Shown here: positions 6,446-32,344 of the stretch, one piece after another | Layout of the letters: the number at the start of each line of letters is the position of its first letter | Numbering within the stretch: the first letter of the stretch is position 1 | NCBI GenBank assembly: GCA_037447655.1 | Contig: JBBHKE010001474.1 | Location: 62,001-126,000, forward strand | Source: Zygnema cylindricum | Taxonomy: Eukaryota > Streptophyta > Zygnematophyceae > Zygnematales > Zygnemataceae | Length of the DNA stretch: 64,000 bases | Direction of reading: 5' to 3' | Program-made: the position numbers and the translations under genes | The notes under the pieces: model-generated | The model's input: only the letters and a program-made list of their open reading frames with translations | Database searches by the model: none | What the model was told of the DNA's origin: nothing

Positions 6446-7489
6446 TAAAACTCTAAGACCTCCATAAGTCCTCAGAGTGGACAGCTTCCAAGAAGCCTAT
6501 AGGATAACCCTGACCCCTTTGTGTTTCAGCAAAAATAACTGCCACCCTGGCAGAAAATAACCTGACCAACTTCACCCTTGTGAAGGCAAGACTCCCTTGA
6601 GTCGATAGCAAAAAGAATCTCTGAATTTGCTCTCCTGAGCAGTTAGTTATGGAGGGTCAAAGTTGACCTTTTGTATAGTAGCTCTCTGGGAGAGAGGGTC
6701 ATATCTCCTAATTTTTCTAAGTCTTATCTCTCTCACAGACTCTATCTACAGATGTACGGATCCAATCAAATTACAGTTCCATACACAAAAGTACAATTGC
6801 CAATGTACTTTCTGTACGGAAACTGTACGACATGGCCTGAATGTCGACACGTGGTATGTTCGCATTCGCTCCTGTAATCCTCGGAGATGCCGCGATCCAA
6901 TGTAACTCCACCATGTGTTATCCGATTTGGCGATGACCACAAACCGCCGAAATCCTCTTCCGCGATCTCGGCGTTAATTCCGACCGTCCGATTAAATTCA
7001 CATTTAATCGTAGCCGTAATACATACATGCGCGATATTCGTTTCATTAAAGAAATAAATGCGCGGTATTGGTTTCTTATCCGTACCGTAATCCGTACTTT
7101 TACATTACTGGATCTATGTATCTTGTAAACAGTTACAGTTAAATGAATTATCCAAACTTATAATGTTTAATTAATTATCGAACTATATACTACGTAACAG
7201 TACTTCTAGACTTAACGGCTAAGGCTACTGGCTACCGCCAGTCTGTCAACTGGCAGGTACCAGGATCAAATCCTGTGGCCGACACATACCTTTTAGTTAA
7301 AAACACCTAACTAATATATATTTCTCGTAAACCTCTGGATAACCTAGGTAGCCATGGCTCTAGCTCCCTCTCCAATTTCTCAGTGACTGCGACAAGTTTG
7401 AGAGTGGGAGAGAGAAGTTAGAGGCAGACTGCCTCAGCTTCTTTCTATTTAGACCTAGAAAATAATTAATATTGGACCATTAATTTCTA
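6446..7489 (-). repeat. 3' LTR of element A
   Basis: On the minus strand it begins TGTAGAAATTAATGG directly after an AAGGGGAG polypurine tract and ends at the target duplication. It matches 11,843-12,896 along its length. It carries a tRNA-like T-arm/B box at 7,261-7,275, in the orientation opposite to the element. Confidence 0.92.
7212..7285 (+). other. tRNA-like T-arm/B box in the 3' LTR of element A
   Basis: CAGGATCAAATCCTG forms a 5-bp stem with a TCAAA loop (7,261-7,275) and fits the B-box consensus GWTCRANNC. It is preceded by GGCTAAGGCTACTGGCTACC. Antisense to the element. Confidence 0.5.
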
Positions 7490-7504
7490 CACTCCCCTTA
7501 TTTT

Positions 7505-9262
7505 CTAGTCAATCTTTAATTTCAGACCACACTTCTCCATGCAGAAAATTAGCTTAGGGGAAGGCACAGGTTTGGTCATCATATCTGCTACCATCTCCCT
7601 ATCTGGTCGGTACTCTAAACTGATTATTTTGTTTTCTACTTTCTCTCTAACAAAGCTGAGTTTAATGTCCATGTGTTTAGCTTTAAAATGATGTTTAGGA
7701 TTGGCAGAAATATCGATTGCTGCCTGATTATCACAAATTTTTTTTTGCACACCACTCTTAAGGTGACCAAGCTCACCAAGCAAAGACTTGATCCACATCA
7801 ATTCTTTTGCAGATGAGCTAGAGGCCATATACTCAGCCTCCATGGTGGACTGAGCAATAACCTTTTGTTGTTTTATACTCCAACAGCAAGCCGCATCACC
7901 CACATAAAATATATATCCAGAAGTACATCTCCTCATCGGAGCATCACTATAACTGGCATCACTCTAAGTAGTAATGTCAGTATTCTCCCCACCCGAATGC
8001 AACTATAGATCCCTAGTTCCTATCAAATATCTAAGGACTCTCTTAGCTACCTCCCAATCCTTCTTAGTGGGAGCATTTAGACTTCTACTCAGCACTCATA
8101 CAGCCGCAACTAAATCTGGCCGCGTACAATTCATAAAATAGATTAGGCTACCCACTACTTGCTTGTAAGGAATAGTCTGCATGAACTATTGTTCTTCAAG
8201 ACTTAATTCCTCGTCTAAGACTATGACTTCTTCTTCCTCACTTCCCTCACTTCCCTTCTTTAACTCCATTGGAGTTGTACAACTATTAGTTTTATCTATC
8301 TGAAATTTTTCCAGCATGGTCCCCATTGCTTCATTTTGAGTCAATCTCATAATCTTACTTTCTCGGTCTCTTTCTACTTGAATTCCCAAAATATATTTTG
8401 CTTCCCCCATATCCCTCATTTCAAATCTCCCCTTAAAATCGATTTTCAATTTATTAATTTTTTTCATTGATTTACTTAAAACAAACAAATCATCAACATA
8501 AATTGCAATGAATATAACACCTTCCTCATCTTCAAAAACATAGATTGAGTGATGTGAGCTGATCCGGATATATCCTAGACCGGTAAGAAACTCATCAAGC
8601 TTGTTATTCCACTGTCGAGGCGCATGTTTCAAACCGTAAAGAGATTTAATCAGCCGGCATACCTTACTCTCCTCTCGTTCCTCCACAAATCCTTTAGGTT
8701 GTCGCATGAAGATCTTCTCTTCCAATTCTCCATGCAAAAAGGCTGTCTTGATGTCCATATAGTGCACCTCCATGTCTTTCGCTGCTGCTAAACTGAGAAG
8801 TATGCGGACGGAGGGAAATTTGACGATCGGGGCAAAGGTTTACTCGTAGTCAATTCCTTCTTTCGATGTAAATCATTTTGCCACTAATCCGTCTTTGTAA
8901 CGCTCAATAGTGTTATCCGGGTTCAGTTTTAATTTTAAAACCCACTTACAACCGATTGGTTTTCGGTTAGGTGGACAGTCCACCAGCTCTTAAGTATCGG
9001 CTGCAATAATTGAGGCCATCTCCTCATTGATGGGTGTCTTCCACCAGTTCTTTTCTGGACAAGTCATCGCCTCTCCATAAGTTTGAGGTTCATCTTGATG
9101 AGATAGTTTTGTTACCTTGTTATTAACCTGTTTTTCTTGCAATCTTTTGCTACTTCTCCTTCCCCCCTCAAAATCTGTGGCCGGAATAGATGGTTCTCGT
9201 GGGTTCTTTCGAACAATCTCGGCTTCTCCCCTGTCCCTTGATTCTGAATCAGTTTCCACCAC
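7505..9262 (-). pseudogene. copia A: reverse transcriptase and RNase H
   Basis: Starts in the integrase-RT linker, then RT with MDIKTAFLHGELEEKIFMRQ, SLYGLKHAPRQW and the catalytic box IYVDDLFVLS. RNase H follows with DAACCWSIKQQKVIAQ, STMEAEYMA and CDNQAAIDISANPKHHFK, ending at the copia C terminus (MVADMMTKPVP) and a stop at 7,505. Several in-frame stops and breaks occur (about 8,990, 8,186 and 7,937). Family role: copies the RNA into DNA in the particle. Confidence 0.88.
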
Positions 9263-9424
9263 GTCTTCCGCTTCGGGTAGAGTTGTTACTGGAGTTTTCC
9301 TAGCCGAGTTTTTTTCGGTCTGATTTGTACTTGTAAGAATGTCATCTTCTCTAAAACCTGGATAATTAGGAAGTTCAATGGCATCGGAATTTTCTGACTC
9401 AAACCTGATTTTTACTGACTTTGT

Positions 9425-10570
9425 TTACGTGAAGGGATCCACGAACTTTCCTTCATTCATAACTACTAGATGCTTTACTAAGATTACATCTTCCCTTTTT
9501 AGATCATTGACTCTATATCCTTTCACATCCTCATCATATCCTAATAAGTATCCCGGTTTTCCTTTAGGATCTAGCTTCCAATTAGACCGATCTGTATCTA
9601 GATTGAAAACTTGACTGCCGAAAACCTTTAAGTGAGATATGTCTGGTTTCCGACCTGTCCATCTCTCATAAGGTGTTTGATCTTTTATAGCTGAAGTAAA
9701 AACTCTATTTTTGAGGTAATTAGCACAGTTCATTGCTTCGGCCCAAAACCTTTTTCCTATCTTCTTGTCCGACAACAAACTTCTATCACTATCACTTAGT
9801 GTCCTATTTAATCTTTCAGCTACCCCATTCTGTTCTGGGTTTTTCTGGAACTGTTTTTTGGTGTTGGACTCCATCTTCCCTCAGAAAATCCTCAAACTGG
9901 TTAGAAGTATACTCTCCACCATTGTCACTCCTTACTCTCTTGATTGGAGTTTCATGGAGTTTTTCGCTTCATTCTTTATATTGTCTAAAAAAATCCTGAG
10001 CTTCAGACTTGTTTTTCAAAAAATACACTTGGGAATACCGAGACCAATCATCAGTGATAGTCATCATAAATCTCTTCCCCCCGGTGAGGGCACTTTAGCC
10101 GGTCCCCAAATATCCGTGTGTACTAGATCTAGAATTTTTTCTCCCTTATAGGTGGCTTTTTTAGGAAAGGGTAATCTGTGTGTTTTACCTTGAGCACATC
10201 CACTACAATCATTTATATTATCATTCTCACTGAACTTAATCCCTTCCACCACTCCCATCTTTTTCATCTCTCTTAACTTGTCTAGATTCACATGCCCAAG
10301 CCTCTTATGCCATATCATAATATCATGAACACTAGCATAATAATGTTTCTTCTTTTCATTACTTAAAACCAGCCTAAACATCCCATGGCTACCTTTCTTA
10401 ACAATGAAATAGACATCCTCCTCAAAACTAGCAGTAAAGAGTCCTTCCCTAGTGCTAGTAAAAAAACCCTTATCATCTAATACGGATGTAGAGATGAGGT
10501 TTTTGTTCAGCTCCGGAATAAACAATACATCGGAGAATGTTACTTTGGATGTCTTTCCATCTACTATCAC
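9425..10570 (-). pseudogene. copia A: integrase
   Basis: From about 10,570 the frame shows IPELNKNLISTSVLDDKG (the end of the protease-linker region typical of copia). It continues with the zinc-binding module (WHKRLGHVN, then CSGCAQGK) and the first catalytic Asp in HTDIWGP. The frame breaks near 10,064 and again in the core. It resumes at about 9,874 with NGVAERLNRT, which holds the third catalytic acid, followed by the copia C-terminal region (GRKPDISHLKVFG, YLLGYDEDVKGYRV). Confidence 0.82.
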
Positions 10571-11066
10571 TTTTAAAATCTACCGATCCTACAAGAGTAG
10601 TGGTGACTATCCTCCCATCCCCGTACTCTATATCTACGGTGGGAATCTTTCTTATCTTAGTGAACAAGTGCCTATCCTTACAGATGTGCATGGAGGCCCC
10701 TGAATCTACAATCGAGCCTGCTTCACCTTTCAATCCACAGTAAGCACATTTCTGCCTTCGTGGAATTTCGACCTCGTTTTTCGCCTTCAACTCCTCATCT
10801 AAAAGGAGCTCATCGTCCTCGTCCTCGGATTACACCTCATGTACCTGTGTCACAAGGGTCTTTTTTTTTCCCCTCGGGGTACCACCGGTCTGCCCCTCCT
10901 TTAACCGAAACTCGGTTAGCTTAGTGCACTCTGCCATATAATGCCTAGGTTTCTTACAAAAATGACATAAACCTTTGGGAGCCCTTAGTTCGAACTCGTT
11001 AGTCTGATTTTTTTGCTCCCTCCCCCCTAGTTTTTGACCGGTTTCCGGGAATCCTTGTTCCTCCAA
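10473..11066 (-). pseudogene. copia A: zinc knuckle and aspartic protease
   Basis: A CCHC zinc knuckle (CHFCKKPRHYMAEC) is followed by an acidic linker interrupted by a stop near 10,828. Then comes the protease with the active-site motif IVDSGASMHICKD and a flap-like region GRIVTTTLVGSVDF. The frame then ends, and the next domain continues in another frame because of an extra A in a short A run. The same stop and frame change occur in element B, in a stretch nearly identical between the two copies. Confidence 0.85.
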
Positions 11067-11839
11067 TCGGTCGCAGTTGCCAAGACTTGGCCACTCTTTC
11101 CTCCCCTTCGGATCTCAATCGTATTCTCCCGAACGAGAATCATCCATACCACAGAGTTCCATATCCACTTTGAGTCCGGCAAGTTCTGCACACGGTTGAC
11201 TATGTTCTCGAACTCATTAGGTAACTTCATCAGTAAACAGTTAACCTGTTCTTTTTCACTAAAATATTTTCCCACACTCTTTAGCTCCATGATGAGTTTA
11301 GCTAGTTCATTGCAAAAATCCAACATTTTCCCCCCTTTATATACATACTCATTAACTTTCTGATCAGCCAACTCTTGTTGCTGAATCGTACCATTTCGGT
11401 ACATCTCTATGAGAGCCATCCAAAGATCGGATGCCCTTTTTACCTGCAATTGAGGACATGCAAGTCCTTGAGTGAGATGGCGTAGGATGAAATGCTTTGC
11501 CGCCATATTGTTCAAGTCCCAGGTTTCAGTATCATTCTCCTCGTTCCTCGAAATAGGTGATATGAATGCCAAACCAGTTGCTATTGGTGTGGTCGCCTCC
11601 TTCTCCTTTCCTTTGTCCACCACTTCTTCTTCCTTTGTTTCCTCCATTGAAGGTGGATCCTCTTTCCTGGTGAATCTGCTTCCTCCAAACCCTGGAGGGA
11701 TTCGAAGACTTGATGGACGCCCCAACCGTCCACTTACTATCCCCCAAAACCTTTTTTCGCATAGAGCTCCTATCATCATACTTTCCCAGTATATGAAGCC
11801 AATTACATTAAAGATTGGTACCTTAGAGGGTGGGCCCAT
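11027..11839 (-). pseudogene. copia A: gag, N-terminal and middle part
   Basis: The frame starts at the ATG in the primer site (MGPPSKVPIF) and runs about 270 codons. It contains the copia gag pattern: a short 'PIFN....YWESMMIGALCEKR' module, an acidic/Pro linker, then a UBN2-type helical region (MAAKHFILRHLTQ, LADQKVNEY). An upstream ATG in the LTR would add eight residues. The frame is lost shortly before the zinc knuckle, which continues one frame over at 11,066. The protein would build the virus-like particle. Confidence 0.85.
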
Positions 11840-11842
11840 AAC
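11828..11842 (-). other. Primer-binding site of element A: tRNA-iMet anticodon arm type
   Basis: The minus strand reads GTTATGGGCCCACCC next to the LTR (the first G of the canonical GGTTATGGGCCCACC is replaced at the LTR border). As recalled, this is complementary to the anticodon stem-loop of plant initiator tRNA-Met, so a half-tRNA primer is implied, as in Drosophila copia. The ATG inside it is also the start of the gag frame. Confidence 0.75.
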
Positions 11843-12896
11843 TTGAAACTGTGAGACCTGCATAAGTCCTCATGGTGGACAGCTTCCAAGAAGCCTCTAG
11901 GATAACCCTGACCCCTTTGTGTTTCAGAAAAATTAACTGCCACCCTGGCAGACAAAAACTCTGACCAACTTCACCCTTGTGAAGGCAAGAATCCCCTGAG
12001 TTGATAGCAAAAAGAATCTCTGAATTTGCTCTCCTGAGCAGTAAGTTATGGAGGGTCAAAGTTGACCTTTTGGTAACGAAGCTCTCTGGGAGAGAGGGTC
12101 CTATCTCCTATTTTTTCTAAGTCTTATCTCTCTCACAGACTCTATCTACTGATGTACGGAACCAATCAGATTAGAGTTTCGTACACAAAAGTACAGTTGC
12201 TCGTGTACTTTGTGTACGGAAACTGTACGACATGGCCTAAATGTCGACACGTGGTATGTCCGAATTCGCTTCGTAATCCTCGGAGATGCCGCGATCCAAT
12301 GTATTTCCGCCACGTGTCATCCGATGTGGCGATGATCACAAACCGCCAAAATCCTCTTCCACGATCTCGACGTAAATTCCGGCCGTCCGATTAAATTCAC
12401 ATTTAATCGTAGCCGTAATAAATACATGCGGGACATTCGTTTCATTAAAGAAATAAATGCGCGATATTGGGTTCTTATCCGTACCGTAATCCGTACTTTT
12501 TCATTACTGGATCTATGTATCAAGTAAACAGTTACTGCTAAATGAATTATCCAAATTGATAATGTTTAATTAATTATCAAACTATATACTACGTAACACT
12601 AGTTCTAGAGTTAACGGCTAAGGCTACCGGCTACCAGCTACTGGCAGTCTGCCAGCCGGCAGGTACCAGGATCAAATCCTGTGGCCGGCACATACCTTTT
12701 AGTTAAAAACCCCTAACTAATATATATTTCTCGTAAACCTCTGAATAGCCTAGGTAGCCATGGCTCTAGCTCCCTCTCCAATTTCTCAGTGACTGCGACA
12801 AGTTTGAGAGTTGGAGAGAGAAGTTAGAGGTAGACTGCCTCGGCTTCTTTATATTTAGACCTAGAAAATACTTAATATGGACCATTAATTTCTATA
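11843..12896 (-). repeat. 5' LTR of element A
   Basis: Matches the 3' LTR throughout. The terminal dinucleotides have decayed (start reads TATAG instead of TGTAG on the minus strand). It contains G-box-like ACACGTGG and CCACGTGTCA words and the tRNA-like B box at 12,669-12,679. Confidence 0.92.
12613..12691 (+). other. tRNA-like T-arm/B box in the 5' LTR of element A
   Basis: The same CAGGATCAAATCCTG at 12,667-12,681, again antisense to the element. Confidence 0.5.
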
Positions 12897-14580: not shown

Positions 14581-15141
14581 AGTTATAATCCTTTCATCAA
14601 TAATTCCCATCTTCAATGGCCAAAAGTATGCGTACAGGGCGGTGATGGTTGAGTCGTCGTTTGAAACTGGTGACTTATTGGGGGTCTTGGATGGCTTCTT
14701 TGATGAAACAGATCCAACTTGGGCGAAAAAGAATTCAATGGCAAGGAACAATCTAATTCTTTGTATTTCAGAAAACAAAGTCATGTCTCGACTGAAAATG
14801 AAGAAGGCGAGGGAGATTTGGACATCCCTGAAATCCGCTTTTGAGAAAGTGAATGTTCAAGAGGAGCTCTTGGTGGCTGGAAAAATTTGGGGATACAAAT
14901 ACACGGGGGGAACTAATGTTGAGTATTGTGACAATTTTCGTGCGCTCATTGATGCTCACTCTTTTGCTGGGGGGTCATTTCCTGAGTTTCAACAGACAGC
15001 TTAGCTTATTACAGGTCTCCGTAGTAGCGTGAAGGGTGTGACTGTTCAATTAAAGAGTCATGATAAAGCTAGCTGGTCATTTCAGTTAGCGTATAACCTT
15101 ATATTGGAGGAAGAAACAAATACTAAACTCCTTGAAGGAGA
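14522..15141 (+). pseudogene. copia C: gag (N-terminal part, cut by element E)
   Basis: The frame opens at the ATG within the LTR (MSTSTTTVGSPPTMVVVEQQ). It shows the 'IPIFNGQKYAY' start module and a UBN2-type gag core: SMARNNLILCISENKVM, KAREIWTSLKSAFEK, then LLVAGKIWGYKYT. One in-frame TAG at 15,002-15,004 interrupts it. The same frame then continues (GLRSSVKGVTVQLK, LILEEETNTKLLEGD) up to the border of element E at 15,141. The rest of gag is on the far side of E, at 27,829. Confidence 0.85.
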
Positions 15142-15352
15142 TGTCGAGCCCATGGTTATGATGCTTCATGCCAGAAGAATAATATATAAAATGGGCAACA
15201 AATAACACTCCGCGTGGAGAATTTCATATGTCGAAATAAAATGATCATCCTAACAACATTAGTGTGGACACATAGATGATAAAAACAATAAAAAGACAGA
15301 AAAGTTACCAACCCCGTCCCAAATGTGGGGACCGTCGGGTTCACTCCTGAAT
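15142..15352 (-). repeat. Element E, repeat block B2 (outer 3' end)
   Basis: Copy of B1 at the outer left edge of E. Together with A2 it forms a unit of ~1.44 kb with TGTC...GACA ends on the minus strand, i.e. a normal-looking LTR. Confidence 0.9.
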
Positions 15353-16576
15353 ATATCATCAAGCTCGGTGGGCCATGCTAACAACTTTAAACAAAAGAAA
15401 GTCAACCATAACCCTAATACTGGGAATTAACAAATCAAATCAAAATGGAAATAATTTAGACTGCCATAACATTTATGCCAGTGATCTCTGCAAACTCAAC
15501 AATATCGCCTCCTACCCTACTCAAACATAAGCCATTCACCAGAATACATAAACATATTCCAAATAATTAAGCACAATAAGTAACATTCAAGCGTCCCCAA
15601 ATGCTAACTTAATAAGGGTTTTGACCCACCCAGAGGAGCAAACTGAGGCCACGGAAAAACTCCCGTGATCAGACTCCAAAGTTCTCGAAACCCCACGGAT
15701 CCCTCCCAATCATGGATCCGTCCAACTCCCTCCTTTAGAATCCCAATGACTATTGCAATCAGAAAGCCCCAAGTATCCTTGTTGCCAAACAAGACACAAA
15801 TTGACTAACTGGAAGGCAACTCCAACATGATCCAAAGATGGAAAAAGGGAGGCTGGCAAAATAGCTCTTTTCTGGTGTGTTCAGGTTTTGGAAGGCGACA
15901 GAACTGAGAGACAATTCCGAGCCTTCATTTTCCAAGACAATATTGAATTCCAACAACCTAAAGTACTTAGAACTAATACTTAGCATCAAAATCTGACACT
16001 ACGGGACTCATTCTATGTTTATTTCCCAAAAACGTCAGAAATTTGACTTATGAAAAGTCGGTTGGACAGCTTGTACTAATTTCCAACCGGCAAAAGCAAT
16101 CATTGCTTCAAAAAGTCAATAATTAACCTAGATTATGCAGTTTACAGAAATTGCCATATCTCTAATAATTTCTATCTGATCAATCAAAAAAAAAAAATCA
16201 TTAGAAAGTTATTAAAAAGTTCTATCTATCAATATAAAATACAGCATGTTTAACCCAGCCGTTGAAAAGATATTGAACGTCAAAGTTTCTACAATATGCA
16301 CCAAAACACTACTTTGACCTCACATATCTTGTAGCATAATTATCCAAATTAAGTGAAATAAAGTTCTATTAGCTATGCTACATAGAATTTAATATTGCGT
16401 TCGATTACAGAACAAAACAATAATATGTGTGATCATATTCGTCTCTCAAAAATGGCTTTTGGTGCCCTGCCGGCTCAATATTGACCAACTCCAAAATTTG
16501 GTCCGAAACCACCTCCAACGAAGTAGTAATAGGGTCGAAAATCATTCATAGGCAATAAACATAATCGTGCATGACA
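15353..16576 (-). repeat. Element E, repeat block A2 (3' side)
   Basis: Copy of A1. It lies between B1 and B2. The 2-nt spacer GC at 16,577-16,578 separates it from B1. Confidence 0.9.
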
Positions 16577-16578
16577 GC

Positions 16579-16789
16579 TGTCGAGCCCATGGTTGTGATG
16601 CTTCATGCTAGAAGAATAATATATAAAATGGGCGACAAATAACACTCCGCGTGGAGAATTTCATATGTCGAAATCAAATGATCATCGTAACAACATTAGT
16701 GTGGACACATAGATGATAAAAAAAATAAAAAGACAGAAAAGTTACCAACCCCGTCCCAAATGTTGGGACCGTCGAGTTCACTCCTGAAT
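16579..16789 (-). repeat. Element E, repeat block B1
   Basis: About 211 bp. On the plus strand it starts TGTCGAGCCCATGG and ends CACTCCTGAAT. It matches 15,142-15,352. It directly follows (minus strand) a polypurine stretch AAGAAGGGGGGG at 16,792-16,806, as a 3' LTR would. Confidence 0.9.
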
Positions 16790-16841: not shown

Positions 16842-18235
16842 TCAAACCCCCATTTCACACTCCCCACAAAACCAAGGTCGGCCAAGCTGGTCCCAACCTG
16901 CCCAATCCTTAGGTAAACAGGAAGAATGCCAAGCTCGAGTGCATGCCTCACATAATAATATGTCTGTAGTTTCGTAACCTGGGGCACACAAGGGAGAATT
17001 AGAACAAATGGGAGGAGAGGGAAAATAAGTGAAATGTAATGTTGGCTCGTCCTCGAGCCCTCGAAGGTGGCAAGGAGCCACATTAATTTGATTATCTTTG
17101 ACTCTCTTGCCGTCAGCCCCTTCCAAGGTTAACATTCCTTTAGGGGAAACCTCAACCACCTTCAAAATAATCCAGCTCGCAAAAATATCCAAAGTATCAT
17201 TTTTCTGCCGCATCCGATAAACAAAATCTCCGGGCTGAAAACGTCGTTGTCGAGGAACATAAGAGCCACTCCTACGGTGGGAATACTAAAGTTGATCTCT
17301 GCGTTGGGCCGCTTGCAAATTGCCCATAGCTATCGGAATCTCCCGATGAAAAACCTGCGCTCGAGCGGTAATTAGTCTTTCCACTGTCCCTTTACTATCC
17401 ATCTCTAGTAAGACAGTGGCTTGGGCCGAGGCAAATCCTGGGAGAATAGGATGTCTACCAAACAACATAAAATAAAGGCTGTGATTGTGGAGAGATGCCT
17501 GTCTACTAAACCTATAGCCCATAGCAATCCAAGGCACCTTACGATCCCAATCCCCCACATCCTCCTCGAGTGCATATTTTCTGAGTGCTCTCTTGGCTTT
17601 TTGGACACAAAGTTCGGCTAACCCATCAACTTGAGGATGATCTCTACTAGTAAGTCGGTGATCAATCAAACATTGCTCCATCAAAGTTGAAAAATCCCCA
17701 ACAAATTCGGAACCCTGATCGGTAAAAACTTCCGCAGGGGCCCCAAACTGAGCAAGCACTCTCTGTAAAAAGGCATCGGCCACAATCTTAGACTTTTTCC
17801 GAGGTTAAACCACGAGCTCAATCCACTTAGAAAAATGCTCTATCATCACAAGCATGAAGCGGTTTCCTCTTCGACTAGTCGGAAGAGGCCCTAACAAGTC
17901 TAATGACCAACAATAAAACATTCCCCGAATGGGAAGAGAATGTAATTCGGTACCACTTTTCTTGTCAAATGCTGCTTTCACTCGATCGCATGTTAAGCAT
18001 GCTTGAACCACTCGATTCACTTGTGCTCGAATTCCATGCCACCAATAAGATGCTGCAACCAAAGAAGCGGTACGCTTCTAACCGAAATGACCACATTGCT
18101 CATGGAGGTTAGTGACTAAGGTTTCTCGATCACCAAGTTGTGGAACTACCTTCCTGACGCCATCTGGCCAAACCCTTAATATAACCCCTCTATCCCAAGT
18201 GTAAGCTGACATCCTCTGAAAAACTCAAGCTTTCT
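16842..18235 (-). pseudogene. Element E: DDE integrase with C-terminal PHD finger
   Basis: A continuous frame broken by three stops (about 18,080, 17,805 and 17,286). Zinc-binding module: LHEQCGHFG..., QACLTCDRVKAAF. Core: WSLDLLGPLPTSRRGNRFML (first Asp), FTDQGSEFVGDF (second Asp), VDGLAELCVQKAKRAL (Glu). A C-terminal small-barrel region follows (FQPGDFVYR, DTLDIFASWIILKVVEVSP). Last comes a C4HC3 PHD finger: CSNSPLC, LLCEAC, WHSSC, WFCGEC, with all eight zinc ligands present. Family knowledge: PHD fingers often read histone H3 tails. Here it takes the place where chromoviruses carry a chromodomain, suggesting chromatin-guided integration (inference). Confidence 0.85.
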
Positions 18236-18355
18236 GGATCCCCTATAAATAAGGTAAAATTGACCCTTGCTGAATGGATTTCAAGGTGTCTAAATCATCA
18301 AAAATGTCAACCCTACATGCTGACAATGGGGCCTGCCCTTCCACCTCTGCCCCTA

Positions 18356-18455
18356 ATGCAAAAAGTTCCCCCTTTTTTTCTAGGAAGCAAAGAGATCTGC
18401 CCTTAATGCAAAAAGTTCCCCTTTTTTTCTAGGAAGCAAAGAGAATGCTGTGGCT
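18356..18455. repeat. 50-bp tandem duplication at the end of the RNase H frame
   Basis: ATGCAAAAAGTTCCC and the following CTAGGAAGCAAAGAGA occur at 18,356 and again at 18,406. The duplication changes frame and adds a stop between RNase H and integrase. Confidence 0.85.
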
Positions 18456-21013
18456 GCCATAACCATTCCAACCCCCAAAATAGGATCCTCATCGTACCTT
18501 GCTCCTGTTGCATCAACAGAAGATGGATCGGGGTTTCTACTAAGACCATCTGCATTACCATGGGTCTCACCAGCTCGGTGAATTATCTCAAAATCATACT
18601 CTTGCAATATCAAAGCCCATCGAGCAAGTTTCCCTGTAAGCTTACTATTCTCCATTATCCATTTCAAAGGTTGGTGATCGCTGATGAGGGTGAAACGAAC
18701 GCCATAGAGATAGGATCGGAAGTGTTGGATGGCCCAAACAGCTGGTAGAAGCTCCCCATGATAACTACTATAAGAGGCCTCCGCCTTATTGTTGCTCCGG
18801 CTTGCATAGGCCACTATGTATTCGGCTCCTGAATCATCAAGCTGAGCTAATACGGCCCCTAATCCGAATCTACTCCAATCAGTGTAAAGAATAAATGGTC
18901 GAGAATGGTCTGGCATACGAAGAATCATACTTTCTTTAAGAGCATTCTTCAAAAATTGGAATGCCTCTTCTTGTTCTTCCTTCCATTGCCACTCTTGATC
19001 CTTCCTTAAGAGTAAATTGAGGGCCTGAGCTCGGCTGCAAAACTCTGGAACAAATCGTCTATAATAGTTAGCTAACCCCAAAATTGTGCGGAGTGAAGAA
19101 TCATCTGTAGGAGCTGGCAACGCATCCAAGGCGACGACTTTGACCATATGTGGACCTACAGTCCCAGGGGTAACCTCATGTCCCAAATTCAAAATTTTGT
19201 CTACCCCGAATATACCTTTACCTGGATGACACTTTAAGCTTGCCGCCCTTAGAGCATCAAACACTGTTTGTAAATGAAGGAGGTGATCCTCCAAATTGTT
19301 AGAAAAAATGATCACGTCATCAATGTAACACCGAGCACATTCAATCCCCCGTAAAGCTTCATCCATTACTCGTTGGAACTTTGCGGTTGCATTTTTCAAT
19401 CCAAAAGGCATATAAAGCCACTCGTATAATCTGTTACCTACCCAGAATGCTGTCTTCTCTCGATGCTTAGATTCCATATGCACTTGGTGAAATCCCTGCT
19501 TCAAATCTAAGGTAGAATATATAGTTGCTCCAACCAAATCATCAAATATTTCTTCAGGAGTGGGCATAAGATACTTGTCCGATATAGTGGCTGCATTTAA
19601 CTTTCGATAGTCTCCACACATTCGGAAGTCTACAGTCTTCCCTGTAGAATCTTTCTTCGGAGGCAGTACAGTTGGGGAGGCAAACCCATGAAGACCAGTG
19701 CTTTCCTGTACTAATCCTGAATCAACCAAACTTTGGACTTTCTCTTTCACAAATTCTTTCTCCGAGTGGCTCAAAGGATATTGCTTTTGCCACACTGTCG
19801 TTGATTCGTCGACTAAGTCAATTCTAAATGGTGTGCCCTTGTAAATCCCAACATCTGTATCAACCCACGAAAACACATCCCTATTCCTTCCCAATAGATC
19901 CACAATTCTAGACTTTTGGCTCTCCTCTAACCGTTCTCCAATAATCCAATCCATTTTTCCCGGTTCTACAGCTGCAAAACTCTCCGGTGGCCTCGTCCAC
20001 TGGGACGGATCAAACTCGTCCCCCCCCAACCCCTTTGCTCTATCTCCTTCTTGTAACACCCTACTAGACACCCACAAATCATCCTCTACCTTATACACTT
20101 GCTTCTCTTGTTCTTTTGGTCTACTCTCCTTGGTTTTTTGTTGTTGGATTTTTTGATGAATTTTTTTATCTCTCCCCCCCCCAAGCGCTAGTGTGACCTG
20201 CATAGTCAGGTGAGCTGGAGCTTGTAAAAATGAAGTGCGATGCTGGTGAGAATAGAAAAAACCATGAGATAGTGTAAAACCAACTAACCACTGTAGAGCG
20301 TGTAAATCCATAGTTTGACCAATCGAACGGCAACGGGTGTCAACGGAGAGATTAAAAGCGGTAGTAGTATTGGTGCGAAAACCCATGACTCGTTCTCGTT
20401 CATTGATATTGGGCACATCCCATTTTTTTGTATTAGTGTCAAAGATCATGCCAAGAGAACCTAAATGATAAGCATGGCTCCGAGGAAATGAAACCAAAGT
20501 GGGGAGTGCGTTTCTTGGTTGATCAGATTTGTTGCAGTCAAAAAATAGTTGTCGAGATGTATATGTGACAAAAGTAGTTTTATAACCTTTGTCAAAAATC
20601 TGATCGACGGTGTGGTTTGGCGGACGCTTTTGTAATCCCACGGCGGTGTTTAATAGTGGAAAAAGAGCAAGATTAGTCCAATATGAGCGAAGACGGAAAG
20701 CACGAGACCCCATCTGAGCTGCATCAAATACTAAAGGTTCCCCCAAATAGTGAATTGTCTTTTCCCAAGCAGTAACTACCTTACTACGTTGACCCGCACC
20801 AAGGAAGACATTTTCCAACAAATATCCCAACGGCTTATGCTGATGTAATTGCAAAAGGTTGAGGATAAAAACCATCTGATAGAATAAACGACTCCGAGTG
20901 TCACTATTTCCCTTTCCTTTCCCTGCCTGAGAATATCCTTGACAAGGCCAACCAGCTATCACCAAATCTACCCCCCAAATCTCGGATATCTTCGGAAGTA
21001 ATTTAGTTAACAT
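18380..21013 (-). CDS. Element E: cytosine-5 DNA methyltransferase fused to reverse transcriptase and RNase H
   Basis: One 877-residue open frame. Residues 1-~265: C5 methyltransferase with motif IV GWPCQGYSQAGKGKG (catalytic Cys 24), motif VI LLENV (Glu 67), motif VIII GSRAFRLRSYW (103-112), the motif IX region NALPTLVSF, a NERERVMGF segment and motif X GQTMDLHALQWLVG (232-245). A Lys/Gln-rich linker follows. The gypsy RT then has STLDLKQGFHQVHM, YMPFGLKNATAKFQRVMD and the catalytic box CYIDDVIIFS (about 563-570). RNase H has LYTDWSRFGLGAVLAQ, GELLPAVWAIQ, LISDHQPLKW and NADGLSRNP. The domain sits between protease and RT without a stop, so it would be made as part of the polyprotein. The frame ends in a ~50-bp tandem duplication at 18,356-18,455. 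Motif I lies in another frame upstream, so this copy is probably inactive for methylation. Confidence 0.9.
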   Translation of the reverse strand: MLTKLLPKISEIWGVDLVIAGWPCQGYSQAGKGKGNSDTRSRLFYQMVFILNLLQLHQHKPLGYLLENVFLGAGQRSKVVTAWEKTIHYLGEPLVFDAAQMGSRAFRLRSYWTNLALFPLLNTAVGLQKRPPNHTVDQIFDKGYKTTFVTYTSRQLFFDCNKSDQPRNALPTLVSFPRSHAYHLGSLGMIFDTNTKKWDVPNINERERVMGFRTNTTTAFNLSVDTRCRSIGQTMDLHALQWLVGFTLSHGFFYSHQHRTSFLQAPAHLTMQVTLALGGGRDKKIHQKIQQQKTKESRPKEQEKQVYKVEDDLWVSSRVLQEGDRAKGLGGDEFDPSQWTRPPESFAAVEPGKMDWIIGERLEESQKSRIVDLLGRNRDVFSWVDTDVGIYKGTPFRIDLVDESTTVWQKQYPLSHSEKEFVKEKVQSLVDSGLVQESTGLHGFASPTVLPPKKDSTGKTVDFRMCGDYRKLNAATISDKYLMPTPEEIFDDLVGATIYSTLDLKQGFHQVHMESKHREKTAFWVGNRLYEWLYMPFGLKNATAKFQRVMDEALRGIECARCYIDDVIIFSNNLEDHLLHLQTVFDALRAASLKCHPGKGIFGVDKILNLGHEVTPGTVGPHMVKVVALDALPAPTDDSSLRTILGLANYYRRFVPEFCSRAQALNLLLRKDQEWQWKEEQEEAFQFLKNALKESMILRMPDHSRPFILYTDWSRFGLGAVLAQLDDSGAEYIVAYASRSNNKAEASYSSYHGELLPAVWAIQHFRSYLYGVRFTLISDHQPLKWIMENSKLTGKLARWALILQEYDFEIIHRAGETHGNADGLSRNPDPSSVDATGARYDEDPILGVGMVMAATAFSLLPRKKGELFALRADLFAS

Positions 21014-21335
21014 TTTGCGAGAGTCGATGATGAGATTGTGAAATAGTAGATACAGGTAATCGAAGAGGGTACAATCGATGAAGCTCTAATGGTTGAAATT
21101 CACTCACTTCCCGAGCTGAAGATGAAATTTCCACGGCCCAATAACTGCCAATTTGGTGGTTGTTCATCAATATAGCTCCTAAATCCGTACTAATGCTAGA
21201 AAAAAAAAAGAGACTACCGTTAACCCTGCCGGCCCTAGTGTCAAATGAACCACCTCTCAAAGAAGAGGCGTCAAAATATGCCCTTGAACAAAATGTCGAA
21301 ATTTGATTCTTCTTTTGGATACATTTGTCGAACAA
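21003..21335 (-). pseudogene. Element E: DNA methyltransferase, N-terminal motifs (I-II)
   Basis: One frame carries LFFFSSISTDLGAILMNN and then YWAVEISSSAREVSEFQ. This fits cofactor-binding motif I (family form F-x-G-x-G; here the glycines are replaced, FSSIS) and motif II (the acidic residue in VEI that contacts the ribose of S-adenosylmethionine in the family). The frame runs out at 21,003 and overlaps the next frame, which carries motif IV onward. A single indel near 21,045-21,075 has therefore split the domain. The linker before it (21,606-21,257) is open in a third frame. Confidence 0.72.
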
Positions 21336-21658
21336 GGTAATGTCTTCTCATCTATCAAAAAATTGAACACTTTTTCGTGACCTCGTCTCAAAGAAGCCGC
21401 GACCTCTAATCTCTGTTTGTGGGATTCCTCCCACTCAGCGGAGATGGGCAATTGCTATATAAGGGGGGCAATGTCGGTGGATTCATCCTCCGATTCAATG
21501 GAAAATTTAGAAGAATGAATTGAGGAAGCATTGCTAGTGTAGACCGGGTAGCAGCTTGCCGCTGATTCTTGGGAATGATGACGTCCCCACAAAATGAGAG
21601 GGACAAAAACGCGGCGAGCGAGTGAAGTTGACAAATCCCGAATGCAGATTTGCTCGCT

Positions 21659-22183
21659 CTAAAAATCTACCATGGCTCTCAATCGTGACCATGTATGGGT
21701 TCCCAATAAAATTTCAAACTGATTTCCCTCCACCACAAGAAACGGGAGACGAATAGAAATCTTTTGACCTGCATCATCTCCAAATTCGATATCCATACCC
21801 TTCACCATACCAAACACTGGTTGATTACCACTACTAACCGTGCTTAGGCACACCTTACTGGAAAATACTTTAGGCCTACAATTGGGTGGCAATTTCTCCA
21901 AAGCACTAGTAGAGATAAGGTTAGGAAGGGCCCCAGTATCCACCACGGTTTGGAGGAAACCACCGAAACCATTAATCTTAAAGTGTCAGGAAGAGTTACC
22001 AATATATGCAACAGCCAAAGAAGAGTAATCCCTATCCGCAATTTGAACCTTCGCCGAGCTACCAAAACTGGAATCGAAAGATGAAATGGGTGCTCCAAAA
22101 GCATCTGTGGATGTCACCATGCCGGTGATCTTAGATCCTAATGCCGAAATGAGTTCTTCATCCGAAATTTGATGGGAGTTAGC
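21659..22183 (-). pseudogene. Element E: retropepsin-type aspartic protease
   Basis: The active site is VVDTGALPNLIS (DTG). A beta-strand region with FDDAGQKIS-like loops and the C-terminal ILLGTHTWSR motif follow, as in gypsy proteases. Upstream in the same frame is the substrate-proximal part (AKVQIADRDYSSLAVAYIG), cut by a TGA just before FKINGFGGFLQ. It would process the polyprotein; this copy is interrupted. Confidence 0.82.
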
Positions 22184-22923: not shown

Positions 22924-23536
22924 GAGGGAGATAAATTTGACAAAAAGTGGGAATGCTCATAAATGCTTTCCCAGTAGCAGGATTTGTCTTCACATATTTA
23001 AGCAATTTTTTCGGAATCCCTTGTTTTCCAAAACATTGGGCCGACGTATGGCTCTGATATCCACACGCCTCGCATGTCCTATTAGGAGTGGAGAACTTTG
23101 CCCTCAAATCATCAGGAATGTTTTGATGGTCCAACTGAGAAAGCCTAATTCGACAAATTCTCTGAAATTCCACCAGCTTTGCATCTGAGGTGTCACCTTA
23201 TTTCCTGTTGTCACCACCTCCACCATCATTCCCCTTTCTGTGATCACCAACTCCACGTGCCACATTCCGAGCATCTCGTTCGGCGTCAATCTTCGCCCTC
23301 TTTGCTGCGAACTCAACTGATAAAGGTCTCGGACATTTTTGCCAACCATGTCCAACCTCTCCACAATTCTTGCATGAGAATAGGATTTGTCTATCCGCTC
23401 CATGAGCTTGCGGATTCGGGTCTGCTACTCCTTTCCCTTTCATTGCTCGTGATATAGCAGCATTCAATTCAGCATTGGTGACAAAAGGAGTGTTGGATGC
23501 AGAAAATGCTTCCTCTTTACGAACTTTCCCCGTCAT
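22910..23536 (-). pseudogene. Element E: two CCHC zinc knuckles
   Basis: Frame starting at the ATGA overlap. The first knuckle CKNCGEVGHGWQKC lies at about 23,333-23,374. A TAA at 23,198-23,200 follows. The same frame then continues with a second knuckle CEACGYQSHTSAQC. Zinc knuckles bind the element RNA. The stop between the knuckles suggests decay. Confidence 0.8.
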
Positions 23537-24738
23537 GGTCCTCTCCGAGCTTCCCGATCTGTAAAGTGGTCATGGTATTTCTGAGCAACGGTAGCAAGAT
23601 CAAAAGCAGTGATAGAAAGATTGTTAAGAGCTTTCTGAGCTGTCCAATTTTCTAAATTTCGGGTCATCTTCAGATCAAGGGATTTCGACAACGCGTGTTC
23701 AAACTTAGCAATTATCAACGGATTTTTAATATCTTGCTGAGTTCGAACACAAAGGTTAGCAAGACGGTTGTACATAGTGAGAGGAGTTTCATCAGGCTTC
23801 CGTTTAAATTCATGAAACTCTCTCATGGAGGCCTCATTTCGCTCCGTATACTGAGTCTCCCATATACCCAGTAATGTGGTACAAGGTTGGGAATTCGCCT
23901 CCATCCTCGTAGCAGCAATAGCGGCATACTCTGATCTCTTCATCTGGGAGTAAGCCAATGTCTCATCACGTAACTTATCATCAAACGTGTACGTGGCTGA
24001 AATAGGGTGACGGATGGTTGCCTCGAGATCAGTCATCGCTGTAACATGGGCTTGGTCCAAAGTCGGGTCCGAAATCTTGATAGTTGGGGCAGTCAAACCG
24101 GTCTTCCTCTCCATATATTTTGACAAAGCCCCTCTTGCCAATCGATCTACCATCATCGAAAATAACATCCGCTCTAAGCCGGCCGGAACAACACCTCCTC
24201 GGTAATTGTTAACTTTAGCGGCATAAAATGTCTCCCATTGGAGTTTAAACAAGGAAAAAGAAATGCCCAATGCATCCCTTGTAAATAACCTCGAGTTATC
24301 CCCCATGCGGAAATTGTCTTCAAACGGCAATCGAAATCCTCTGTTTTCCAAAGAAGTGGTATCAAAAATAGGAGAAATAGGGTTCCCCAAAGACGGCACA
24401 CTCCCAATCGGTGAAGGAGGATCGGGTGGCTTCGAAGGACTGTAAGAATCAGGGACCAATGACGAGGATTCTGGAGAAGGAAGTGATGAAGGGGTGGATG
24501 GTGAAGAAGGAGTGGAATGGGATGAAATTGATTTATCTATAATGTTACCTCCATCACTTTGCCGGTGTAAATGTTCCTCTTCATCACTAGGTGGAGGATG
24601 GAAATGAAAAGAGTTAAAGGTAGGGTTGAGGGGTAAACCTCCTGAAGGAGGAAGAGGGGAAATGGGTGAAGATGGTGGAGAAGATGAGGTGGAGGATCTA
24701 GAGGGAGAAGAAAGAGAAGGAGAAGGGTTTGCTCTTGT
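23533..24738 (-). CDS. Element E: gag core
   Basis: Same frame as the upstream extension, beyond the TAG. It opens with a Ser/Pro-rich stretch (about 93 codons), then a helical gag-like region: FKLQWETFYAAKVNNYRGG, YTERNEASMREFHEFKRKP, DETPLTMYNRLANLCVRT, and KFEHALSKSLDLKMTRNL, resembling retrotransposon gag domains. It ends at a TGA whose last bases overlap the next ATG (ATGA), a possible reinitiation or -1 shift site. Expected role: particle formation around element RNA. Confidence 0.75.
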   Translation of the reverse strand, partial: TRANPSPSLSSPSRSSTSSSPPSSPISPLPPSGGLPLNPTFNSFHFHPPPSDEEEHLHRQSDGGNIIDKSISSHSTPSSPSTPSSLPSPESSSLVPDSYSPSKPPDPPSPIGSVPSLGNPISPIFDTTSLENRGFRLPFEDNFRMGDNSRLFTRDALGISFSLFKLQWETFYAAKVNNYRGGVVPAGLERMLFSMMVDRLARGALSKYMERKTGLTAPTIKISDPTLDQAHVTAMTDLEATIRHPISATYTFDDKLRDETLAYSQMKRSEYAAIAATRMEANSQPCTTLLGIWETQYTERNEASMREFHEFKRKPDETPLTMYNRLANLCVRTQQDIKNPLIIAKFEHALSKSLDLKMTRNLENWTAQKALNNLSITAFDLATVAQKYHDHFTDREARRGP

Positions 24739-26599: not shown

Positions 26600-27826
26600 A
26601 TATCATCAAGCTTGGTGGGCTATGTTAACAACTTTAAACAAAAGAAAGTCAACCATAACCCTAATCCTGGGAATTAACAAATCAAATGAAAATGGAACTA
26701 ATTTAGACTGCCATAACATTTATGACAGTGATCTCTGCAGACTTAACAATATTGCCTCATATCCTCCTCAAACACAAGCCATTCACCAAAATACATAAAC
26801 ATATTCCAAATAATTAAGCACAAAATAAGTAACATTCAAGCGTCCCCAAATGCTAACTTAATAAGGATTTTGACCCACCCAGAGGAGCAAACTGAGGCCA
26901 CGGGAAAACTCCCGTGATCAGACTCCAAAGGTCCCGAAACTCCACGGATCCCTCCCAATCAGGGATCCGTCCAACTCCCTCCTTTAGAATCCCAAGGACT
27001 ATTGCAATCAGAAAGCCCCAAGTATCCTTGTTGCCAAACAAGACACAAATTGACTAACTGGAAGGCAACTCCAACATGATCCAAAGATGGCAAAAGGGAG
27101 GCTGGCAAAATAGCTCTTTTCTGGTGAGTTCAGGTTTTTGGAAGGCGACAGAACTGAGAGACAGTTCTGAGCCTTCATTTTCCAAGACAATATTGAATTC
27201 CAACAACCTAAAGTACTTAGAACTAATACTTAGCATCAAAATCTGACACTACGGGACTCATTCTATGTTTATTTCCCGAAAACGTCAGAAATTCTGACTT
27301 ATGAAAAGTCGGTTGGACAGCCTGTACTAATTTCCAACCGGCAAAAGCAATCATTACTTCAAAAAGTCAATAATTAACCTAGATTATGCAGTTTACAGAA
27401 ACTGCCATATCTCTAATAATTTCTATCTGATCAATCATAACAAAATTCATTAGAAAGGTATTAAAAAGTTCTATCTATCAATATAAAATACAGCATGTTT
27501 AACCCAGCCGTTGAAAAGATATTGAACGTCAAAGTTTCTACAATCTGCACCAAAACACTACTTTGACCTCACATATCTTGTAGCATAATTATCCAAATTA
27601 AGTGAAATAAAGGTTCTATTAGCTATGCTACATAGAATTTAATATTACGTTCGATTATAGAACAAAAAAATAATCTGTGTGATCATATTCGTCTCTCAAA
27701 AATGGCTTTTGGTGCCCTGCTGGCTCAATATTGACCAACTCCAAAATTTGGTCCGAAACCACCTCCAACGAAGTAGTAATAGGGTCAAAAATCATTCATA
27801 GGCAATAAATATAATCGTGCATGACA
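26600..27826 (-). repeat. Element E, repeat block A1 (5' side)
   Basis: Matches 15,353-16,576 along its whole length with a few percent differences. On the minus strand it begins TGTCATGCACG and ends near GATGATAT. Unlike the left side, it is not followed by the ~211-bp B block. Confidence 0.9.
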
Positions 27827-31289: not shown

Positions 31290-32344
31290 TGTAGAAATTA
31301 ATGGTCCATTTTAAGTTTTTTCTAGGTCTAAATAGAAATATAAAAAGAAGCCGAGGCAGTCTACCTCTAACTTCTTTCTCCAACTCTCAAACTTGCCGCA
31401 GTCACTGAGAAATTCGAAAGGGAGCTAGAGCCATAGCTACCTAGGCTATCCAAAGGTTTACGGGAAATTTATATTAGTTAGGGGTTTATTTACTAAAAGG
31501 TATGTGCCGACAACAGGATTTGATCCTGGTACCTACCGGCCAGCAGACAGCCGGTAGTCGTTAGCCTTAGCCGTTAAGTCTAGAAGTAGTGTTACATACT
31601 ATATGGTTTGATATTTATTTAAACATGAATACGAATGTTAAATCATTTAACTGTAATTGTTTACGAGATACAGAGATCCGGTAATGTATAAGTACGGATT
31701 AGGGTACGGAAAAGAAATCAATACCGCGCATTTATTTCTTTAGTGAAACGAATACCGCGCATGTATTTATTACGGTTACGATTAAAATCGAATTTATTCG
31801 GACGGCAGGAATTTGCGCCGAGATCGCGGAAGAAGATTTCGGCGGTTTGTGGCCATCGCCACATCGGATGACACGTGGCGAAATTACATTGGATCGTGGT
31901 ATCTCCGGAGATTATGGCACTGAATCTGGATATGACACATGTCGACATTTAGCCAATTTCGTACAATGTTCGTACATAAAGTACATCGGCAGCAGTACTT
32001 TTGCGTACGGAACTGTAATCTGATTGGTTCCGTACATCAGTAGATAGAGTCTGTGAGGGAGATAGGACTTAGAAAAATTAGGAGATAGGATCCTCTCTCC
32101 CAGAGAGCTTCTGTACAAAAGGCCAACTTTGACCCTCCATAACTTACTGCTCAGGGGAGCAAATTCAGAGATTCTTTTTGCTATCAACTCAAGGGAGTCT
32201 TCCCTTCACAGGGTTGTAGGTGATCAGAGTTTTTGTTTGCCAGGGTGGCAGTTGTTTTTACTGAAACACAAAGGGTTCAGAGTTATCATAGAGGCTTCTT
32301 AGAAGCTATCCACTCTGAGGACTTATGGAGGTCTCAGAGTTACA
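31290..32344 (+). repeat. 5' LTR of element B
   Basis: Starts TGTAGAAATTAATGG and ends GTCTCAGAGTTACA. It contains an ACACGTGGC word at 31,871-31,879 and, in reverse orientation, the tRNA-like B box at 31,516-31,526. Confidence 0.93.
31505..31575 (-). other. tRNA-like T-arm/B box in the 5' LTR of element B
   Basis: The reverse strand reads CAGGATCAAATCCTG at 31,514-31,528. B is on the plus strand, so the module is again antisense. Confidence 0.5.

Follow-up and report, generated by a model that had tools for sequence, protein, structure and literature searches.

The window, the whole 64,000-nucleotide stretch of Zygnema cylindricum DNA analysed here, carries on its minus strand a Ty3/gypsy LTR retrotransposon that, judged by its sequence, almost certainly encodes a DNMT3-type cytosine-5 DNA methyltransferase (DNMT) domain. 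The explanation that best fits the evidence overall, and which we consider fairly probable, is a decayed copy of a DNMT3-carrying gypsy family whose members would methylate their own cDNA. Direct LTR arms, 96.0% identical over 1229 columns, flank gag and pol, and the element is made up as follows:

26600..27826, minus strand: 5' LTR arm, a direct repeat with 15353-16576; its inner end may be truncated
23012..24321, minus strand: gag region in two frames (tblastn with a 716-aa ORF, 24321-23524 and 23545-23012, E 6e-83)
21659..21985, minus strand: remains of a retropepsin-like aspartic protease (PR) with VDTGA (Asp_protease_2, E 1.8e-4, 22.6 bits, just below the cut-off of 24.3)
21009..21206, minus strand: DNMT motifs I-II, in a different frame from the remaining motifs (ORF 21003-21347; family profile positions 7-72, 30.6 bits)
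20270..20983, minus strand: DNMT motifs IV-X, with PCQ, ENV, RxR, ERERVMGF and motif X (Pfam PF00145, E 9.1e-12 over 20681-20983; family profile positions 82-319, 282 bits)
19175..19660, minus strand: reverse transcriptase (RT) with YIDD, in frame with DNMT motifs IV-X (RVT_1, E 1e-26, residues 476-637 of a 901-aa ORF)
18596..18910, minus strand: RNase H (RH; RT_RNaseH, E 3.9e-34, residues 726-830 of the 901-aa ORF)
17286..18374, minus strand: integrase (INT) region, frame shifted relative to RNase H (rve, E 8.1e-4, 20 bits, cut-off 32.6, ORF 17286-17804)
16857..16988, minus strand: C-terminal PHD finger (PF00628, E 1.2e-4, 22.5 bits, cut-off 24)
15353..16576, minus strand: 3' LTR arm, a direct repeat with 26600-27826

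The element exceeds the coordinates first proposed for it, with the LTR arms, integrase and PHD finger all lying outside them. A 214-nt piece just outside the 3' LTR arm (15139-15352) recurs just inside it (16576-16789). The window contains no Rfam match at the gathering score and no tRNA. The query for the gag region was the 716-aa ORF of relative L034, which lies upstream of the L034 PR; Pfam assigns it no family, and the region is labelled 'gag' by where it lies and by a zinc-knuckle match, itself weak (E 0.11). The L034 PR ORF aligns to window positions 22255-21521 (E 3e-70), its integrase part aligns over 18374-16848, and the integrase part of another relative, P0015, aligns as well. PHD finger scores in relatives are 38.1 bits (L032), 17.5 bits (L034) and 17.7 bits (L033). 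The pol order in the window, L032 and L034 is PR-RT-RH-INT, with the DNMT domain between PR and RT; in the window this placement follows from the aspartic protease remains upstream at 21659-21985.

The 901-aa ORF (18380-21085, minus strand) contains, in order, PCQ, ENV, RLRSYWTN, NERERVMGF and a GQ..D motif X, followed by RVT_1 and RNase H; the names are those of the C5 methyltransferase motifs as we apply them to this ORF, and RLRSYWTN is taken to be motif VIII. The profile search proposed as a check in the original prediction matched Pfam DNA_methylase at residues 35-135 (E 9.1e-12, 45.5 bits, cut-off 22). The central claim of that prediction, a C5 methyltransferase between the protease and RT of a gypsy element, is thus borne out by the Pfam match, the PR remains upstream and RVT_1 in the same frame, as are its motifs in canonical order within one frame running into RT, and motifs I-II upstream in a shifted frame, at about 21009-21206.

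Profile and fold comparisons place the predicted domain closest to DNMT3, with unpermuted motifs. Profile E-values are 9.5e-20 for DNMT3A, 9.9e-9 for HaeIII, about 1e-6 for DRM and 0.18 for DNMT1, and a second profile comparison agrees. An AlphaFold model of relative P0001 has pLDDT values, by ten-residue block, of 71-94 (41-230), 40-75 (231-300) and 80-91 (301-360), and the best 50 Foldseek matches listed for it were all of the DNMT3 family (top match 8tdr_A, E 3.8e-17, TM 0.80 by target). The DNMT3A/DNMT3B catalytic domain is the best match in both profile and fold, with the same unpermuted motif order from I to X, but identity in the fold alignments is only 19-23%, and motif IV reads PCN there versus PCQ or ECQ here. 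Pfam reported neither an ADD nor a PWWP domain in the proteins scanned, as compared with DNMT3A/3B. The DRM catalytic domain is circularly permuted. It belongs to the same superfamily, but the domain described here runs I-II-IV-VI-VIII-X, without the permutation typical of DRM, and its DRM profile match is about 1e-6, against 1e-19 for DNMT3A; DRM domains are likewise described as rearranged in PMC5890265. Outside eukaryotes, scans of viral contigs gave one weak match each (36% over 55 residues; 29% over 138), and a five-copy profile scan of prokaryote species genomes gave 27 pattern stretches and no relatives.

The window copy itself carries a frameshift between motifs II and IV and a second pol shift before the integrase, and its motif I reads FSSIS, where the closest intact relatives have FSGIS. 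The original prediction had noted this glycine loss and offered two readings, a dead copy or a family with a variant motif I. Because of the frameshifts and the lost glycine, which relatives keep, the copy is, on its sequence, dead, a decayed member of a conserved family; the variant family falls, since all 33 full-length domains examined keep the glycine. These 33 domains, 18 of them from this genome, also all retain the catalytic Cys and the motif VI Glu. In the relatives, the motifs of a C5 methyltransferase (I, IV with its Cys, VI with its Glu, VIII and X) stand in order, while the window copy departs from them in the motif I Gly and in frame continuity. Across 76 domains, the catalytic Cys and motif VI Glu are invariant (76/76 each) and the motif VI Asn nearly so (75/76). 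To our knowledge, the Pro preceding the catalytic Cys is nearly invariant in C5 cytosine DNA methyltransferases. Here 28 of the 76 domains keep it and 48 have another residue, mostly Glu (E in 45, S in 2, D in 1): Pro stands in the window copy and in subfamilies A and B, as read from their intact copies, and Glu in subfamily C. Methyltransferase activity may therefore differ between subfamilies.

The other genomic copies that the original prediction had proposed to collect are numerous. In this 353-Mb genome, 133 scored domain matches were found among 1632 candidates, all with E <= 1.8e-64, and another scan scored 123. A listed DNMT match lies upstream of RT at 53 of 104 RT places; among the remaining 51, the 14 inspected all contain DNMT remains. 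One candidate for a DNMT-free copy, C961, reported as a 5743-aa frame with no listed DNMT, was rejected: DNMT remains are present, and the stretch examined is mostly N. Relative L032 encodes gag-PR-DNMT-RT-RH-INT-PHD in one 2395-aa frame between LTR arms identical over the 519 bases compared. These Ty3/gypsy elements form a large family that, by such identical arms, was recently active. It comprises at least three subfamilies in this genome, one with ECQ in motif IV. Median dN/dS, a further check proposed at the outset, is 0.23 for DNMT and 0.18 for RT over 17 non-independent pairs, with DNMT the higher in 12 of 17; the DNMT domain is under purifying selection not far from the RT level.

Proteins with the domain were also found in Closterium, Marchantia and Haematococcus, and metagenomic, Closterium and Marchantia polyproteins share the same domain order. 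Two orders were seen, PR-DNMT-RT, as in the window, and RH-DNMT-INT (type 2); a C-terminal PHD finger is frequent, and polyproteins of both orders unite such a finger with the DNMT. The kind of element is already known, and the precedent in a charophyte that the original prediction had mentioned is real: de Mendoza et al. 2018 (PMC5890265) describe KnitGypsy-Dnmt3 of Klebsormidium nitens as an intronless Ty3/gypsy LTR element whose Pol ORF includes an unrearranged DNMT3-related domain, with purifying selection acting on that domain, features that the present family shares. It differs in host, and here a 353-Mb genome holds the subfamilies described above, including the ECQ one; sections 6, 9, 10 and 11 of PMC5890265 make no mention of a PHD finger for KnitGypsy-Dnmt3. 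The RT clade of the element also includes two gypsy proteins of K. nitens, P0100 and P0135, both short models lacking the DNMT, so this likeness is one of RT. Of the 116 entries in that clade, 48 are relatives whose models lack a DNMT. The SymbioDIRS-Dnmt3 elements of dinoflagellates, as described in PMC5890265, also combine a DNMT3 domain and RT in one ORF, with two coexisting structures of different Pol domain order, but their backbone is an unrelated DIRS type with a tyrosine recombinase. New here are the Closterium, Marchantia and Haematococcus relatives, the two domain orders, the frequent C-terminal PHD finger and the frequent Glu in place of the motif IV Pro. Chromoviruses are gypsy elements with a chromodomain after the integrase. 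They resemble the present elements in that their integrase ends in a chromatin-reader module, which here is a PHD finger instead, with a methyltransferase in Pol in addition.

These features suggest a DNMT3-type 'writer', a de novo cytosine-5 methyltransferase, accompanied by a PHD finger after the integrase as a likely chromatin 'reader'. That the element methylates its own cDNA is a tentative proposal, somewhat short of even, drawn by analogy with the SymbioDIRS DNMTs, which showed de novo CG methylation in yeast (PMC5890265). The protease would free the domain, or the domain would be retained, in the virus-like particle, where it would methylate the cDNA in double-stranded form, with CG the likeliest target, ahead of integration or in its course. 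A fresh copy would then enter the nucleus bearing the mark that the host itself uses; this mark may shield it or direct it to chromatin in which it is tolerated. Several observations count against this explanation. In yeast, the gypsy DNMT of Klebsormidium produced no methylation, in an assay called inconclusive (PMC5890265). C/T differences in the window LTR pair (CG 6/44, CHG 7/63, CHH 11/314) show no DNMT-specific CG footprint, since neighbouring copia LTR pairs show like differences, and the element is no poorer in CpG (o/e 0.61) than four copia stretches (0.30-0.57). The higher DNMT dN/dS in 12 of 17 pairs and the variable motif IV also weigh against it. By context, the LTR differences suggest CHG besides CG methylation in the host.

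Other readings differ in what the domain acts on, or deny it a role. The methyltransferase might modify chromatin of the host where the element integrates or close by, with the PHD finger and integrase as guides. Rapid silencing of the element or its surroundings would make it less costly to the host, a form of self-restraint. The union of PHD and DNMT in one polyprotein in both domain orders and the adjacency of DNMT to integrase in type 2 are consistent with this, and a rate-slowing role of benefit to the host is raised in the discussion of PMC5890265. In the window's type, however, the DNMT adjoins protease and RT rather than integrase, and 133 scored copies suggest that any restraint is weak; we regard this reading as rather unlikely. 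More doubtful still is that the domain works on RNA, or binds nucleic acid within the RT complex without catalysis, with DNA methylation secondary. This would accommodate the variable residue before the catalytic Cys, the negative, if inconclusive, yeast result and the RNA methylation suggested for SymbioLINE (PMC5890265), but the catalytic Cys and motif VI Glu are unchanged in all 76 domains, and profile and fold are nearest DNMT3, not DNMT2.

That a fragment of a host methyltransferase inserted just once, into the window copy, or that the match is a chance one, with no role in the element, is so improbable as to be negligible. The frameshifted domain with its degraded motif I would fit an insertion, but the domain recurs at the same place through the family (123 and 133 scored matches), is under purifying selection and keeps its order in the metagenomic, Closterium and Marchantia polyproteins, which refutes it; chance is ruled out by the Pfam (9.1e-12) and DNMT3A (9.5e-20) matches.

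For the origin of the family, we tentatively put forward a scenario that we would not call probable: a single capture of a DNMT3 domain by one Ty3/gypsy lineage, no later than the chlorophyte-streptophyte split, may have left many descendants with writer and reader in one polyprotein. The domain would later have moved between the PR-RT and RH-INT junctions, in either direction, and the motif IV Pro would repeatedly have become Glu without loss of selection. If true, green algae and, beyond them, a land plant would share an ancient epigenetic module that is mobile.

Hosts use cytosine methylation as a weapon against retrotransposons. The conserved domain suggests that these elements use a mark by which hosts normally silence them: a retrotransposon family keeps its own predicted de novo methyltransferase in more than 100 scored matches of one genome, and relatives occur in chlorophytes, streptophyte algae and a liverwort. 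The PCQ and ECQ sister subfamilies and the two Pol positions of the domain offer natural contrasts, making it testable what benefit a parasite may draw from applying the very mark by which it is silenced.

The gypsy copy belongs to an already known kind of element, the DNMT3-bearing Ty3/gypsy retrotransposon, and is filed there because such elements have been described. In the portions of the literature available, a Klebsormidium study describes a DNMT3 within the Pol of a Ty3/gypsy element (PMC5890265), a 2019 opinion piece names gypsy and DIRS elements that carry a methylase in several lineages, including green algae and charophytes (PMC6338049), and a 2025 survey places DNMT3 members in retrotransposons of streptophytes and dinoflagellates (PMC12344493). 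The precedent in dinoflagellates and charophytes named in the original prediction is documented (PMC5890265, PMC12344493). The predicted methyltransferase (DNMT) motifs IV to X stand in canonical order in one frame with gypsy reverse transcriptase (RT), and motifs I and II occupy a shifted frame, as proposed. The element comprises:

18380-21085, minus strand: 901-aa open frame, PCQ, ENV, RLRSYWTN, NERERVMGF, motif X, RT (YIDD), RNase H (Pfam DNA_methylase 9.1e-12, RVT_1 1e-26, RT_RNaseH 3.9e-34)
21003-21347, minus strand: DNMT motifs I and II, in a frame overlapping the 901-aa frame
21659-21985, minus strand: aspartic protease (PR), upstream of the DNMT (Pfam 1.8e-4, below cut-off)
17286-17804, minus strand: integrase core (Pfam 8.1e-4, below cut-off)
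C-terminus, minus strand: PHD finger (Pfam 1.2e-4, below cut-off)
15353-16576 and 26600-27826: two direct LTR arms of ~1.2 kb each, 96.0% identity

The LTR arms differ at 42 of 1222 aligned bases, and no clean target-site duplication was found for this copy. A 214-nt repeat flanks the 3' arm (15139-15352 and 16576-16789, 96%), its outer copy beginning TGTCGAG where copia-like sequence joins; a 3' LTR longer than the 5' arm, or a rearrangement, may account for it. The copy appears to sit within a Ty1/copia element: a plus-strand copia-like gag frame stops at 15004 and copia-like frames, read by eye, restart from 27802. Around it lies an inverted pair of copia-like elements of ~6.4 kb, 90% identical (6454-12894 and 31292-37697), and copia-like LTR pairs of the window, such as 39203-40207 with 44550-45553, show C/T differences more often at CHG (10/41) and CG (9/65) than at CHH sites (19/237), a pattern resembling the trace of plant-like CHG methylation. 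Diverged tandem repeats spaced by roughly 70 bases occur at 2124-3870 and 5615-6321, with an inverted recurrence ~2 kb off. GC content falls to 20-25% within 60001-64000, an interval where neither a tRNA nor an Rfam match reaching gathering score was found.

The window copy is dead. Compared with its relative L034, a locus of the same genome whose pol forms a single 1520-aa frame, its pol has two breaks, one separating motif II from motif IV and the other separating RNase H from integrase; its gag is spread over two frames. The loss of a motif I glycine had been read as either a dead copy or a variant family; the former holds and the latter does not, as intact subfamily A copies keep FSGISTDLEA where the window copy has FSSISTDLGA. 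A second copy, on contig C2362, shares the frame split and an identical 295-aa DNMT segment, with 96.5% identity (85 mismatches over 2479 bases) around that segment; the two could be either duplicates or allelic contigs.

The domain recurs throughout the genome (352.8 Mb, 2689 contigs). Among scored candidates alone, which may include allelic contigs, Pfam DNA_methylase matched 123 (of 782 candidates), every one above cut-off, and the window domain matched 133 (of 1632), none with an E-value above 1.8e-64. Scored RT places were compared with a list of these 133 matches plus 15 selected from the Pfam scan: 53 of the 104 have a DNMT from that list lying 450-1094 bases upstream. Fourteen of the other 51 were examined, and all 14 hold DNMT remains; among 12 of these, 7 remains span 301 or more of the 319 positions, and the least complete spans 43. 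This recurrence upstream of family RTs rules out a one-off insertion into the window copy. Three subfamilies are distinguished, A (that of the window), B and C. Locus L032 encodes gag, PR, DNMT, RT, RNase H, integrase and PHD finger within a single 2395-aa frame, and its LTR arms show no differences across the 519 bases compared.

A profile of five own-genome domains matches DNMT3A (9.5e-20) and DNMT3B (about 1e-17) best, followed by HaeIII (9.9e-9), HhaI (about 3e-7), DRM (about 1e-6), DNMT2 (1.2e-6) and DNMT1 (0.18); a second profile from 15 metagenomic rows gives the same ranking. Unlike in DRM, the motif order is unpermuted. An AlphaFold model of the metagenomic relative P0001 (15 aligned rows; chain mean pLDDT 56) reaches block pLDDT of 71-94 over 41-230 and 80-91 over 301-360, with 40-75 over 231-300. 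Foldseek gives 217 rows at E ≤ 0.001 for this model; the best 50 belong to the DNMT3 family, and the top match has a TM of 0.80 when normalised to the target length and 0.34 when normalised to the query length. In an alignment of 76 domains, each covering 240 or more profile positions (8 copies from this genome and 15 proteins were excluded, mostly near-duplicates), the catalytic Cys and the motif VI Glu are invariant, and the motif VI Asn is present in 75. At the position preceding the Cys, generally a nearly invariant Pro among C5 methyltransferases, 45 domains have Glu, 28 Pro, 2 Ser and 1 Asp, and the DNMT tree requires a minimum of 10 changes. ECQ replaces PCQ, with the Cys and motif VI Glu kept, at own-genome loci L032 (4849-5799), L017, L026 and L030, and in the relatives P0016, P0019 and Closterium P0060 and P0103.

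The proposed dN/dS analysis reveals purifying selection. It covers the 18 places among loci L002-L064 where the whole domain reads without a stop, a set biased to intact copies in which two pairs have the same domain sequence. Within-subfamily pairs at dS 0.05-0.4 give dN/dS of 0.09-0.45, and two pairs at dS <0.01 give 1.26 and 0.32; in deeper pairs dS is saturated, with dN of 0.14-0.19 inside B and inside C. RT pieces from the 18 places include 14 that are stop-free, 13 of them of at least 300 bases. In 17 non-independent pairs, all of subfamily B with dS 0.03-1 in both domains, median dN/dS is 0.23 for the DNMT and 0.18 for RT, the DNMT being higher in 12; the DNMT is therefore under constraint, perhaps slightly weaker than that on RT.

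Three protein searches returned at least 170 different proteins. Among the 116 new in the third (best 120 of 2613), 38 match the DNMT, in some cases weakly or over part of its length. Matches occur in Closterium sp. NIES-53 and NIES-54 (P0060, P0103, P0136; partial in P0113, P0117, P0133, P0158) and Haematococcus lacustris (P0026; short P0137 and P0138; P0053, without recognised RT). The Klebsormidium nitens proteins P0100 and P0135, short RT-to-integrase models, and two Tetstr1-labelled models (read as Tetraselmis) are without one. Gypsy proteins P0104 and P0139 of the land plant Marchantia polymorpha show PR-DNMT-RT-RNase H with motif IV PCQ. Titles and abstract openings, a partial coverage of the literature, yielded no report of Marchantia or Closterium members; the 2019 opinion, in the part available, describes land plants such as tracheophytes as without methylase-bearing elements (PMC6338049).

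Two domain orders are found: type 1, that of the window's genome, is PR-DNMT-RT-RNase H-integrase, with a PHD finger in part; type 2 is RT-RNase H-DNMT-integrase, with a PHD finger in most. In several metagenomic elements the DNMT closes a gag-PR ORF. For both P0008 (gag-PR-DNMT) and P0068 (RT to PHD) the longest contig has 8955 bases, a hint that they are two ORFs of a single element.

A single branch parts the types in both first trees, from which near-duplicates were omitted (DNMT, 59 rows, SH-aLRT 99; RT, 43 rows, bootstrap/SH-aLRT 100/100). In an RT-RNase H tree of 131 rows (after removal of 6 near-duplicates and of 15 rows closely related to one another from a single arachnid), rooted approximately, as seven animal outgroup rows do not fall together on one side of any branch, all 68 DNMT-match rows lie inside one 116-row clade (SH-aLRT 99) that includes the K. 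nitens and Tetstr1 rows; none of the 15 rows beyond it has a DNMT. For 48 of the 116, the row's own model is without a DNMT, many being ~1000 aa from RT to PHD; their DNMT may lie on ORF1, or may have undergone repeated loss or gain. Type 2 makes up a single 38-row clade, including one DNMT-less row; P0132 beside it owes its type 1 label to a 20-bit match. In a 76-row DNMT tree, type 2 falls within a 99-supported group of 38 that also holds P0028 and P0053, scripted as type 1 since their models lack RT. The simplest reading of these trees would be one DNMT capture and one relocation within Pol; two captures in sister lineages may be the alternative, because the trees are without a host DNMT3 outgroup.

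Gypsy Pol is cleaved by its own protease in particles, where cDNA is made, and integrase inserts the cDNA. The DNMT would travel alongside RT and could methylate the double-stranded cDNA, so that a new copy would gain a host-like mark; the PHD finger may direct integration. In the part available, PMC5890265 puts forward a cDNA-methylation model for DIRS, and reports de novo CG methylation in yeast by SymbioDIRS DNMTs and none by the Klebsormidium gypsy DNMT, a test its authors termed inconclusive. Weighing against self-methylation, the LTR C/T pattern and CpG depletion resemble those of copia: differences affect 6/44 CG, 7/63 CHG and 11/314 CHH sites in the window LTR pair, and 30/222, 34/188 and 42/670 in three LTR-placed copia pairs together, with no DNMT-specific footprint by context and no stronger CpG depletion of the gypsy element. 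Across 201 non-independent gypsy locus pairs, mostly coding, C/T rates are 0.126 (CG), 0.109 (CHG) and 0.073 (CHH). This excess at CG and CHG suggests that the host methylates CHG sites as plants do.
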